Assembly: GCA_016872635.1 (NCBI GenBank)
Contig: VGZN01000006.1
Coordinates: 1-34,081, forward strand
DNA length: 34,081 bases
DNA from: Planctomycetota bacterium
Lineage (GTDB): Bacteria > Planctomycetota > Planctomycetia > Pirellulales > Pirellulaceae
Reading direction: 5' to 3'
This document shows positions 11,964-18,435 of this stretch, piece by piece. The notes under the pieces were generated by a model, which had not been told where the DNA came from, searched no databases, and saw only the letters and a program-made list of their open reading frames with translations. Each line of letters starts with the position of its first letter. Positions within the stretch are counted from its first letter, which is position 1. Position numbers and translations under genes: made by a program.

Positions 11964-14130
11964 TTAGGACTGATACTCGACACCGATCGACTCGACCTTG
12001 TTCTCACTCAGCAGAATCAATGTCGATTGGACGAGATCGGGATGGAGCGAGAACTGCCTGCAGAGGACTCGGCGGTATGCATTTAGCTGGGGAGCATGAA
12101 TCGTTTTGCGGCTTTCAATCCAGGGCTCAAGCTTCTCTCCTTCGTCCCGTTGATCGGTTTTGAAGTCGAGGATCTCAGCGCGAACCACTCGATCACCATC
12201 GAGCCCCAGCACGCATCGATCAATGACCCCTCGTATCAATGCCCCATCGAGCAATTGGAGCAATCGTCTTTCTGTGCTTACTTGGAGTCTTAGCAATTGG
12301 GGCTGGTTCCACGCCGAATAGCGTTCACGGCTCAACGCATTACGAATCTCTGGGGATTCGCAATAAGCCATGAACTTATCGATCCAGATATTCAATCGCA
12401 ATTGCGTCATTTCCTCCTGGGTCAGGGTTGCCGATGCGATGTTTGTCAGCAACTTCTTCGTCGGGTGGAAGTCCTCGATCCATCCTCTCACTTCTTCGAA
12501 CCAGCGGTGTACCAATTTACCGACGACGGTCCCTGCCACTTCTTCAGGCTTCCATAGGGTAGCGATCTCGGAATTGGTTCGCTCGTTGAGTTGGCTCGGA
12601 GCAACCCAGTCTGCTTTTTCTGTTCCTGGTTTTCCAGGAGCCAAAGCAACCCGCACCCTGCGTGGTTCGACTATCTCTGCTTTCTCGAGCTTCTCAGCTT
12701 TCTCGAGCTTCTCCGTAGCTGTTCCGTTCATGGCCGCCGTGTACCATTGCGGGGATCCTTGATGGAGAATAACAACCCCAGGTTGCTCCCAAGTGGTCGG
12801 ATCCGATGCATAAATGGAGTGAAGTACGGAACCCCATCGTTTTTTTGCCGTTTTGGATGGGGATGTGTACATGTACAACGCTTGTCGTGCGCGGGTCAGT
12901 GCGACGTAGAACAAGCACATGGCTTCTCCGAGCTTTTGCCGTTGCATTTCTGCGTAGGCCACCTGCCACGCCTCGCCCATATACTTTAGCAACTGATGAT
13001 TCATCGAACGCATGATCCCGATCGGTGCTGACATCCGGTCGGGACGCATGACGATGTAGTCGTTGGTCGTGCGTGTGATCGCTTGATCGAGCGTCGGCAA
13101 AAAGACCGCGTCGAACTCCAATCCTTTGGATTGGTGGATCGTCATGACTCGAACTTTGCTTTCGCCTGGCAAGGCCATCCGATGACGTTCGATAAAGTCT
13201 AGAAACTCATGGATCTGAGACTGGCTAAACGTATCGAACCGGTACGCCTCCTCGATCAACTGTTGCATTCGCTGTTGATCCCGTACCGTGCATTCCTCCG
13301 CGATCCCACGGACCAGCCAGCTTACCAATCCACCAAATCCGAAGGATGCGATTTTCTCTCGAAGATTCGCTGAGAGTCGATTGGGATCGCTCCGCAGCGA
13401 CTCGTCCCACAATCGAATCATCGGAGAATGCTTGAGATGGAAATAGGCCAACGAATCTCCCGGATGGTCGGCCAATTGCAGGGCGCTCATTACCAGTAGG
13501 ATCGGTGCGGTATCTGTGAGTGGATTTCCACCTTCCTGACTCGCCTCGACCCCAAGCTCTCGAAGCCTGGAGATGATGGTTGCAATATCGCGGTTCGCCC
13601 GCGTCAGTACTCCAATCGTAACTTGTGGTGCTTCGCGGTGCAGTTCTGCGATGCGTTCCGCAACTTCTTTGAACAAGTCAGGGCTGCTCCTCACCCCCTC
13701 ATTATCCTTGTTCTCTTGCACATTCGCGTTTCGGAACTCGATGTACCCTGCCAGTTCGGATTTAGCGGTTTTGTGATCGACGAAATATCGCTCTATCCAC
13801 TGTTGCACCAATGCATGGCGACTGCCGTCTTCTTTCTTCTTACCATCTTCACCGATGAAATTATCGTGCTCCGGCAAGCGGCGAAACGTTTCATTGACAA
13901 AATCGATGACTGCAGTGGAACTGCGACGGCTCTCCGTGAGTTTCTGATCCTTGACGTTTTTAATTTGCTGGCCGACCGACTCGAAAATCTCGGAGACGCC
14001 TCCTCGCCAAGAGTAAATCGCTTGCTTGGTATCCCCGACGCAAAAAAAGGACGTTGCACCGTCTGTGGGACTTGCATTATCGACGATCGCCTCTGCGAAG
14101 GGTTTGACGATTCCCCATTGCACAGTCGAG
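11964..14130 (-). pseudogene. addA: AddA C-terminal part (UvrD/RecB-type helicase motifs III-VI plus PD-(D/E)XK nuclease), out of frame with the upstream ORF
   Basis: ORF from GTG 14123: VQWGIVKPFAEAIV..., FFCVGDTKQAIYSWRGG (III), VRVMTIHQSKGLEFDAVFLP (V), LFYVALTRARQALYMY (VI), C-terminal nuclease GVIDRC...AEILDFKTDQ...HAPQLNAYRR. The Walker B motif is absent at the frame junction. Confidence 0.8.
12679..12714 (-). repeat. 18-bp tandem duplication encoding EKLEKA-EKLEKA in the AddA C-terminal region
   Basis: gctttctcgagcttctca / gctttctcgagcttctcc on the + strand; protein ATEKLEKAEKLEKAEIVEP. Confidence 0.8.
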
Positions 14131-17100
14131 CAGCAAATGGTCGACAGAACAGTCCATGCGGTGCGAGATGCTTCGCATATCGGGCTTGTTGTCGCTCGAT
14201 GGTTGCTCGTTGTTTTGATCCTCCTTGGAGCGGTTCGCTTCTACTGTTGCTCGCATCCATTGCGACAATCGTTCAGCCACATCGCTAAACGTGACCATCC
14301 GCCGGGCTTGTTTGATTTCCTTCAAGCAGCGATCGAACTCGACGAGGACTTGGTAAGCCGCTTCGTTTTGCAGTCGTCTATAGGTCAACGCCGAGGTGAG
14401 GGCGTACCCTGACAGGACTCGGACTGCGTCACGCATGGGGGCACTGACTGGTTTGTTATAGTATGTCGCTTCATCTTCTAGGCAAGCGAGCGCCAGCGTT
14501 GATGTGAGGAAGCCTTCCCAGTCACTCTCGAGGAATTGGATTCGGAGTTTGTCTTTCCCTTTTGTCTGCTGATTATTCACCATGGGGGTACATTCAAGCA
14601 CTTGCAAGGCTGCGTTGACGCGTTCCTCGGATGGCGCCGATGGAACATGCATTCGCGTCCATGCTTCCTGTGGAGCTTGTCGGTAGAGTTCGTATGCGTC
14701 TGCGACTACCGATTCGATTTCCGCGCGGACACCTCGAACCGCTTCTCCTTTGGAAAGTTGTGAGATCAGCGATCTCAAGTGTCGGTATTCGATGGAGTCG
14801 AACATGCGCGTGATCGCTTCGCGGTTAATCTGTTCCTCTTGAACCGGATCGATCAGCGTCCAGCCTGGTGGCAATTTCAATTCGAGTGCAAATGATTTTG
14901 CGAGCTGGGAGTAGAAACTATCGAGGGTGCTGACTCGAAACCGATGGAGATGCGAGCATAACCGAGACAGTTGGTACCGTGCTGTGTCATGGGTTATCGT
15001 CATCGGTTCCAAAATTTCACAAAGCCGTCGGAAGCCTTCCTCGGTTTCGCATCCATCTGCCAACCAACTCAATACGCGGTGCAAGATCTCTCCTGCCGCT
15101 TTCCGCGTAAACGTCGTGGCTAAAATGGAATCGAGCGGCTGATCGGTGAAAAGGAGTCGGATCGCCCGAGACGCGAGTTGGTAGGTTTTTCCGGTCCCCG
15201 CCGATGCCAAGATCATCGAGGGATGGAACCACTCCGCAGGCGGAATACCTTCGGCGAGTACTGGTTCAACCGAGCTGCGCTTGAGCACTGGACAGATCCT
15301 CGGCAAGTGAGGTCGCTCGGTCGGTTGATGCGGGACGTCGATTCTTGAATCCTGGCAACTCTCGATCGCGGGAGTATCGCTCTCCGTTTGCTCTCCTAAC
15401 TCCGCATTCAATTTTTCCTCGAGATCCCAACTCCACGGACGTACGACGGTCCTTTGGACGATCCCTTTGTAGTCATCCCAATCCAAGAGAATCTTGTTGC
15501 TCGGTGGCCAAAACGCCCCTTCCAAAACACGGCTGGCAATTGCTTCGGCCGATTGGATTGCTGCTGCATGTTCCTCCAGTGTGAAATCGGCAGTGATGAA
15601 TCGCGTTTGCTTCGCGTTTTTTGGGAGCAATATGTAACCGAATCGAACTTTGCTCAGGTCCTCGATCTGCAGCGTCGATATCAGTTTTCCATAAAGTGGC
15701 AGCTGCCAGTCCTGCCATGTGCCATCCGAGGCGAGATGGTTCTTGCGAGGCTCGTCGGTGGTGTCTCCAGTTTTATAATCCCAGACAGCGTATTCACCTG
15801 TTTCTTTTTTGTAGTCGATCCGGTCGATCCGACCATGGATTTCCATGATTCCCGCGGGCAAATCCCACTTAATTCCCTGTCCTCGCTCGACCGTATGCTC
15901 GATGTATTTGATTTCCCACCCATCGCGAGCGTGGTTCGCTTGATGGATCGCGAACTCTTCGAACCTCAATTTGGCCTGTTCGATTTGAATCACCAACGCA
16001 GGTGGTTGTAGCGAACCAAACATCCTTCGAGCTACACGAACCAATTCCTCATTTAGCCAATCGGAGATTACCTTTGGATCGATGGATGTGGCGACATCGG
16101 ACGCGATCAATCCTTCGAGCACCTTGTGGACCAAATCGCCGAAACCCCCTCCATCGAGTTCCAATGGTAGGTGGTTGGTGGTGGTGGCCCGTTCGATCTT
16201 TCTCAAATAGAACCGGTATGGGCATTCGCTATATTTTTTGAAGTCGGTGACTGCCATATCGTGAATACGGCGTGCCGGATCGGGTTTAGGGATCGGCACG
16301 TTGGATTGCCCGCGTCTCGATTTCCAACCTTCGACAATCACGCTGCTCGGCTCGGGATCGGAAATCAACATCGAAACGCGTCGCGCTAATTTTTCCGTCG
16401 GAACGGTCATCATCAATCGGCTTGGAGTCAATGAGTCGCCATCGCTGCTCAAACGATTCATGATGAACTCAAGATGCTCTCGGGTGTGGAGCAAGGTGAG
16501 CATCACATAGGCATCCCGAGCATAACGCCTGGCGTTATCGATCAAGCCGAGTTCGCTCCGAAGTCGATTGGGTAGAAACGCGTCTGAGTTCACGCTTTCG
16601 GGAAGAACGCCATCGTGCATGCCTGTGAGCATCAGCACCGGCCGATCGTCGAGCGACAATTCCAACCAACCGATCATTTCGATCGCACGGTCGTCTACCA
16701 GAGGTGGGATTTGAACCGAGTGCAATTGCTGATGGATCCATCCTAAGCATTCAGCGAGATCGATCTCGGTATCGAGGGCGGAGGGAACAGCGGCTAAACG
16801 ATCGAGTACTTCATTGATGGCTCGGCACCCGCGGAAGACGAGATTCCCATCAGGTTGATCGCGATCTACCGTGGAATGCCCGTACAATTCGATAAAAATC
16901 TGTCGCCAAGGTTCCGCCCATTGGCTCAATCGACGTTTCCCGTCCCGAAGCGGCTTGAGCCACGCATCGAGCGCTTCGACTGTTGCTACAAATTCGGCCC
17001 GTCCTCGGGCTTGAGGCCACTCAGGCACATTGACCGACCGCAGCAAGGTCGCCGCTAAGTACCCATCGATTGCGGCAAGGAATCTCGGCGGCATCGGCTG

Positions 17101-18435
17101 AGTGATCGATTCAACTCTCTCGTTTGGTGATGCCACCAATCCGTTGCTTGAAGGATTTTTCGAAGGTTCAGCCTCGGCCGTGATCCGTCCGTGTTCCAAT
17201 AGCCAATCATGGACCGCAGAGGTGCGGATCAAATTGGTAAATGCCTCCACGGTTTCGTCGATCAAATACTCTTCGATCGATTTCAAAACCTTCATCGGAG
17301 GTGTATTTCGGACCGGGATTCCTGGGCCATACCGCAACGGAACTCCGGAACGGGCTAGGGACTCTTGCAACGATGGAACCAAACTTACATCAGGGACACC
17401 TACCGTGATATCGGCAGGGCTGCGCGTCGACCCCAGTGCTGCGAGTTGGATGGCTAATTCGTCCGCTGCATCGCTTATGGTCGTACGTACGTGAATCTGT
17501 TCTTCGGAGATCGGGATCTCAAGATTCTGCCAACACTCCGACCGCAAGGTTCCGTCCCGATCGAACCCCTCTGCATACGACTCCGGCGCTCCGACCAACG
17601 CTTTAACATTCGGAGCTATCGCTGCCAAAAAACGCCGTTGTGCTTGGTTCAAATCAACCGTACCGATCAATACAACCTCATGATCAATCCCGGTGACTTC
17701 GCCGTGAGCGAGCGCGTATCGGCGTGCCGATTGAACATCCCATAGCCCTGCTTCGTGAAGCACATCGAGATAGCGTCGCTGCAACCTGGAGAGGACTTGC
17801 CAACGCGATTCCTCGGCCGTTCCCGCGAGAGCGATTGAGACATCATGGAAATCGACCAGGTCCGAGGCCAACTCGCGATGCAACCCCGATAGTAGTCTCG
17901 CCAAATCCATCCACGTGGCCAAATGATCATTGGCTGGTACTTCGAAGAGCAGCGGTTGCAGTTCGGAGGCTGGTGTCGCTCGCAGCACACGCACCCAAGC
18001 CATGGTCTGAGTCAATTCCGAGGCAAAAGGCAATTTCGCTTGATACAACTCCTCGGGGAGTTTTCCCAGAGTAAGAAATCGAGGTGGCCGCAGGACAACG
18101 CATTCTTGCGACCCTTTCTCAGCCAACAAAACCTGTAATCGTCTGCCGGCCAAAGAGCCAGGGAGGACGACCAGCATTCGATCGAGATCCCAATTCGTCC
18201 CTCGCCGATAGTGCTTGAACAAATACTCCACGGCGGCGTGCAGGATCGGTTGGTCCCAACCTAAAAATTCGAGCTGGATCGATTTTTGCAAATCGAAGAG
18301 CGGGCGTTGATCTCGGAGTGTTTTCTTGCCAGTGGACATCAATGAATCCGGTGCGTGATTGTCGAAAATGGTTGCTCGGTCTGAGATCTCCCCAACGTAC
18401 ACCTCTTGGTTGACACGTTTGGTCAACCGCCCCAT
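14077..18435 (-). CDS. addB: AddB-like inactivated-helicase/PD-(D/E)XK nuclease continuous in frame with the AddA N-terminal helicase part; ends in an out-of-frame tail
   Basis: AddB region: LGWDQPILHAAVEYLFKHY..., nuclease TDFKKYSECPYRFYLRKIE...GDLVHKVLEGL...IHGRIDRIDYKKETGEYAVWDYKTGDT...WQDWQLPLYGKLI. Then the AddA region: MILASAGTGKTYQLASRAIRLL (Walker A), ILATTFTRKAAGEILHRVL (Ia), STLDSFYSQLAKSFA. Ends HLLLDCAMGNRQTLRRGDRR*. Confidence 0.8.
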   Translation of the reverse strand: MGRLTKRVNQEVYVGEISDRATIFDNHAPDSLMSTGKKTLRDQRPLFDLQKSIQLEFLGWDQPILHAAVEYLFKHYRRGTNWDLDRMLVVLPGSLAGRRLQVLLAEKGSQECVVLRPPRFLTLGKLPEELYQAKLPFASELTQTMAWVRVLRATPASELQPLLFEVPANDHLATWMDLARLLSGLHRELASDLVDFHDVSIALAGTAEESRWQVLSRLQRRYLDVLHEAGLWDVQSARRYALAHGEVTGIDHEVVLIGTVDLNQAQRRFLAAIAPNVKALVGAPESYAEGFDRDGTLRSECWQNLEIPISEEQIHVRTTISDAADELAIQLAALGSTRSPADITVGVPDVSLVPSLQESLARSGVPLRYGPGIPVRNTPPMKVLKSIEEYLIDETVEAFTNLIRTSAVHDWLLEHGRITAEAEPSKNPSSNGLVASPNERVESITQPMPPRFLAAIDGYLAATLLRSVNVPEWPQARGRAEFVATVEALDAWLKPLRDGKRRLSQWAEPWRQIFIELYGHSTVDRDQPDGNLVFRGCRAINEVLDRLAAVPSALDTEIDLAECLGWIHQQLHSVQIPPLVDDRAIEMIGWLELSLDDRPVLMLTGMHDGVLPESVNSDAFLPNRLRSELGLIDNARRYARDAYVMLTLLHTREHLEFIMNRLSSDGDSLTPSRLMMTVPTEKLARRVSMLISDPEPSSVIVEGWKSRRGQSNVPIPKPDPARRIHDMAVTDFKKYSECPYRFYLRKIERATTTNHLPLELDGGGFGDLVHKVLEGLIASDVATSIDPKVISDWLNEELVRVARRMFGSLQPPALVIQIEQAKLRFEEFAIHQANHARDGWEIKYIEHTVERGQGIKWDLPAGIMEIHGRIDRIDYKKETGEYAVWDYKTGDTTDEPRKNHLASDGTWQDWQLPLYGKLISTLQIEDLSKVRFGYILLPKNAKQTRFITADFTLEEHAAAIQSAEAIASRVLEGAFWPPSNKILLDWDDYKGIVQRTVVRPWSWDLEEKLNAELGEQTESDTPAIESCQDSRIDVPHQPTERPHLPRICPVLKRSSVEPVLAEGIPPAEWFHPSMILASAGTGKTYQLASRAIRLLFTDQPLDSILATTFTRKAAGEILHRVLSWLADGCETEEGFRRLCEILEPMTITHDTARYQLSRLCSHLHRFRVSTLDSFYSQLAKSFALELKLPPGWTLIDPVQEEQINREAITRMFDSIEYRHLRSLISQLSKGEAVRGVRAEIESVVADAYELYRQAPQEAWTRMHVPSAPSEERVNAALQVLECTPMVNNQQTKGKDKLRIQFLESDWEGFLTSTLALACLEDEATYYNKPVSAPMRDAVRVLSGYALTSALTYRRLQNEAAYQVLVEFDRCLKEIKQARRMVTFSDVAERLSQWMRATVEANRSKEDQNNEQPSSDNKPDMRSISHRMDCSVDHLLLDCAMGNRQTLRRGDRR

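Follow-up and report, generated by a model that had tools for sequence, protein, structure and literature searches.

Why does an AddA helicase gene lose its reading frame exactly at motif II (Walker B), and does the break belong to living cells or to their assembly? The question is raised by a Pirellulaceae contig (hereafter the window, i.e. the whole stretch of 34,081 nt that was analysed, contig C6) taken from an assembly of 6.08 Mb in 1143 contigs (93.7% complete). We consider it probable that a recent 20-nt loss-of-function deletion has struck a normal, single-copy, fused AddB-AddA gene, and we favour this reading over an assembly or library artefact. The explanation of the lesion is in this sense an ordinary one.

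Gene organization and domain content

The minus strand of the window carries one long fused AddB-AddA gene, here split into two ORFs that overlap by 47 nt (Table 1). ORF1 closes with ...CSVDHLLLD followed by an out-of-frame tail, and ORF2 (read from position 14123, minus strand) starts with VQWGIVKPFAEAIV. The preliminary description of this DNA made no mention of the fusion between AddB and AddA. By means of profile searches we recovered the AddA N-terminal helicase domain (PF00580, ORF1 residues 1072-1234) at 56.8 bits (cut-off 23), the UvrD C-terminal helicase domain (PF13361, in ORF2) at 82 bits, the AddA C-terminal nuclease (PF12705, in ORF2) at 34.7 bits (cut-off 22) and, in the AddB part that lies beside AddA, a PD-(D/E)XK nuclease domain (PF12705, in ORF1) at 90.7 bits. 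This bears out the earlier statement that the helicase and nuclease parts outside the lesion are intact. The addB_alphas model matched ORF1 at 4e-20 (under its curated cut-off), and the NCBIfam addA equivalog models (TIGR02784/TIGR02785) yielded 48.9-98.1 bits against cut-offs of 707-861, scores that are depressed by the splitting of the ORFs and by the divergence of the lineage. Motif II itself (Walker B, DExQDT) is absent from the window copy.

Table 1. Features of the fused AddB-AddA locus (positions in the window)
Feature	Position	Strand	Remarks
ORF1	14077..18435	-	1452 aa; whole AddB and AddA up to the residue preceding the motif II glutamate
AddB PD-(D/E)XK nuclease domain (PF12705)	15511..16254	-	intact; ORF1 residues 728-975
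AddA UvrD-type N-terminal helicase domain (PF00580), first part	14734..15222	-	Walker A ASAGTGKT just upstream
CTCGAC, the hexamer that survives from the near-repeat pair CTCGAC ... CTCGCC	14125..14130	-	from the comparison with L032 and L033
Imperfect inverted repeat CCATTGC / GCAAATGG	14115..14140	.	chance level
Deletion junction	14124..14125	-	20 nt for the EFQDTS part of motif II missing in comparison with the sisters; frame shifts
Out-of-frame tail CAMGNRQTLRRGDRR*	14077..14124	-	last 15 codons of ORF1; product of the deletion
ORF2	11964..14123	-	719 aa; remainder of AddA, starting just past motif II and including motifs III, V and VI and the C-terminal nuclease
UvrD_C helicase domain (PF13361)	12864..13271	-	intact; ORF2 residues 285-420
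AddA C-terminal PD-(D/E)XK nuclease domain (PF12705)	12018..12548	-	intact; ORF2 residues 526-702

Among solved structures, the top match to the intact sister protein was AddA of Bacillus subtilis (PDB 3u44/3u4q; E 2.5e-18). As in the B. subtilis AddAB system, a UvrD-type helicase is combined with a C-terminal PD-(D/E)XK nuclease in AddA, and AddB bears a PD-(D/E)XK nuclease of its own; unlike it, AddB and AddA form one polypeptide in the window's genus, and the window copy is frame-broken and devoid of motif II.

A private 20-nt lesion at motif II

As comparator we used the nearest genome (G018, the uncultured Pirellula MAG Loclat_bin-07289; 89% protein identity), in which the gene (locus L032) is a single uninterrupted ORF of 2223 aa reading LLLDEFQDTSPVQWG. 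The two genes align at the DNA level with 84% identity across 6454 nt, with gaps of 6, 84, 108 and 20 nt in the window and with extra bases (4+8, i.e. 12, and 6) relative to the L032 ORF. The other length differences add up to multiples of three, which leaves the 20-nt gap at 14125 as the sole net frame change in 6.5 kb; its junction runs from C 14125 to T 14124, with an ambiguity of 1 nt. The alignment thus confirms two early suggestions, namely that the AddA frame breaks exactly at motif II and that the net loss is 20 nt (exactly 20 nt are missing, at 14124/14125).

The 108-nt gap (window position ~14221) marks a tandem repeat that the window lacks: inside the AddA helicase of L032 (7788-7894), ~70 nt upstream of motif II, lie 5.9 copies of an 18-nt unit (VAVGD-type). 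In the second close relative (G005, locus L033) the contig begins at the edge of this repeat.

When the 85-aa region around the motif was searched for across the genus, 25 of the 27 genus genomes returned a match. The frame is open through the motif in 24 of them, the match in the window's genome alone beginning after it. The preliminary description had proposed that orthologues be inspected for the motif, and at the DNA level DEFQDTS was present in every genus locus that covers the site, the window excepted; L033, whose contig begins a little upstream of the motif, is among those that have it. Given the 24 other genus genomes that are open across the site, the lesion is private to the window and no family trait. 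Genus members with a complete gene carry the two halves as one ORF, which disposes of the possibility that these are invariably separate genes. A 600-nt search of the window's own genome found no second, intact copy on another contig, and the gene is present in single copy. What emerges is the pattern of a recent pseudogene: a single disabling lesion, a frame that is otherwise conserved, and restriction to one lineage.

Origin of the deletion

In L032 and L033 alike, CTCGAC is followed at a distance of 20 nt by CTCGCC (a 5/6 match), and hexamer pairs that match this well at a spacing of 20 occur at 0.5% of the positions in L032. From this comparison we infer that slippage between the two hexamers was the probable cause of the deletion: during replication, a strand would copy CTCGAC, re-pair at CTCGCC, drop 20 nt and retain the first copy. 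The sequence predicted by such an event (CTCGAC, then the base preceding GTG) is identical to that of the window. Slippage on a direct repeat had been proposed earlier and stands in this imperfect form, but the perfect repeat then invoked, which required an ancestral Thr codon (ACT), does not, as the codon at that position is Pro (CCN) in all genus relatives. The ancestral Thr codon is also unnecessary for the slippage account. The flanking inverted repeat was placed correctly, but a causal role is not borne out by its frequency, repeats of similar quality being found once per ~63 nt of the window.

Selection and age of the lesion

Substitution rates (simple Nei-Gojobori counts, and hence approximate at such dS) were compared between the two sides of the break. 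For the downstream half, the window branch since its split from the two sisters has accumulated a dS of 0.76 and a dN of 0.048 (omega 0.063; bootstrap 0.044-0.086), against an omega of 0.119 between the sisters themselves, and for the upstream half the comparison of the window with L032 yields an omega of 0.066. Both halves thus still bear the mark of strong purifying selection (omega about 0.06-0.07), and at most ~2.5% of the window branch (97.5th percentile), i.e. a dS of ~0.017, can have passed without constraint. Since neither half shows relaxed selection, the lesion either arose very recently or does not exist in the cells; with no decay in either half and no relative with the lesion, this agrees with the preliminary description, which had called it recent or an assembly error.

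Constraint on both halves would also be expected if the two ORFs were functional, as a split gene, through a programmed frameshift or by reinitiation at GTG 14123 (a possible ORF2 start that overlaps the end of ORF1), together making up a selected helicase-off, nuclease-only allele. We hold this to be extremely improbable. In superfamily 1 helicases, motif II contributes the catalytic Asp-Glu pair. Because the motif itself is missing, the motor is beyond rescue by frameshift, bypass or restart, and the EFQDTS residues would still be lacking after any of these. Neither a recoding signal nor an unusual RNA structure could be upheld at the junction (structure at the site is unremarkable, z = -0.52), and no Shine-Dalgarno-like sequence is visible just 5' of GTG 14123. 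The selected helicase-off allele that had been put forward earlier is found in no relative, nor are there traces of an older allele; other genera, moreover, retain the motif even where the AddA nuclease domain has been dropped, which is the opposite direction of loss. We give very little credence to a natural population that has given up the helicase activity of AddAB through the deletion, with repair passed on to RecFOR and perhaps a greater uptake of foreign DNA, and with the allele maintained by selection.

Null mutation or artefact

We stress that an undecayed lesion, in one fragmented assembly, is also precisely what an artefact would be expected to look like. The cells would then carry an intact gene, and the deletion would stem from assembly, library preparation (polymerase slippage) or amplification, or from a consensus that took up a rare read. 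We see this as a real but clearly less likely account. It is consistent with the fragmentation of the assembly, with the absence of decay in either half and of the lesion in any relative, and with an adjoining stretch that is prone to indels (the tandem repeat of L032, at whose edge the L033 contig starts). Against it, the tandem repeat is absent from the window itself, no intact version was found on a second contig, and a k-mer assembler should not be confused by a 6-nt near-repeat. As a short-read assembler is unlikely to drop 20 nt between 6-nt repeats, at least some molecules probably did carry the deletion, which may be a minority haplotype.

The general soundness of the assembly was assessed by a frame-break survey in which 40 of its contigs (799 kb) were compared with 1.15 Mb of the sister genome, yielding 65 orthologous ORFs at >=75% identity (92.8 kb). 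On inspection, the nine frame breaks flagged at this threshold turned out to be over-extended starts, one terminal-stop read-through and one ORF that appears to be in the wrong frame; none of these 65 other orthologous ORFs was convincingly broken. It follows that the assembly is not frame-broken in general, which argues against an artefact, although zero breaks in 93 kb are still compatible with one error.

Under the favoured recent deletion, the locus would produce a 1452-aa protein that retains AddB (nuclease included) and the Walker A of AddA but lacks the Walker B glutamate, the second half of the helicase and the AddA nuclease. Such a truncated product should fail to unwind or resect DNA ends, and the cell would then depend on RecFOR/RecJ. 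Genes for RecJ and RecO were found in the same genome, which makes an AddAB null plausible. Elsewhere in this genome the UvrD helicase domain occurs in one gene only (contig C220, a full-strength UvrD-type match), and neither RecB nor a second AddA was found in the 94% complete assembly.

In Thermus thermophilus, spontaneous addA frameshift nulls arose in ppol mutants and were viable, and without addAB transformation was some three orders of magnitude higher (PMC9751324). The window resembles strain HB27 of that study in having a frameshift within AddA, which in HB27 was a spontaneous, viable null with raised transformation and damage sensitivity (PMC9751324); it differs in that those were laboratory ppol mutants, whereas the window comes from an environmental assembly. 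If real, the deletion would add another central recombination gene lost in nature through a short slippage event, here in the enzyme's catalytic core; otherwise it would serve as a warning against taking frame breaks in single assemblies as biology.

AddAB layouts in the family

A more lasting by-product is the family-wide survey of AddAB layouts (split, fused, and AddA without nuclease), in which an AddA match was obtained in 142 of 149 genomes. In the literature searched we found nothing specific on fused AddAB or on AddAB in Planctomycetes. The majority of the other genera have AddB and AddA as separate genes, and in the first layout the separate AddA bears a nuclease. The fused AddB-AddA (about 2060-2230 aa) is shared by the window's genus with two further genera of the sample (window 11964-18435, L032:3471-10142, L168, L169, L173 and L174), and within the window's genus it was seen in all members with a complete gene, one single-contig genome included. 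In a third layout, found in several genera (L159-L165 and L171, with a fused form in L166), AddA measures about 850-980 aa and stops a short way past motif VI. Pfam scans of two such proteins (L159, L160) gave no nuclease domain, and the adjacent AddB of L159 keeps its PD-(D/E)XK domain, so that this layout is apparently a single-nuclease AddAB.
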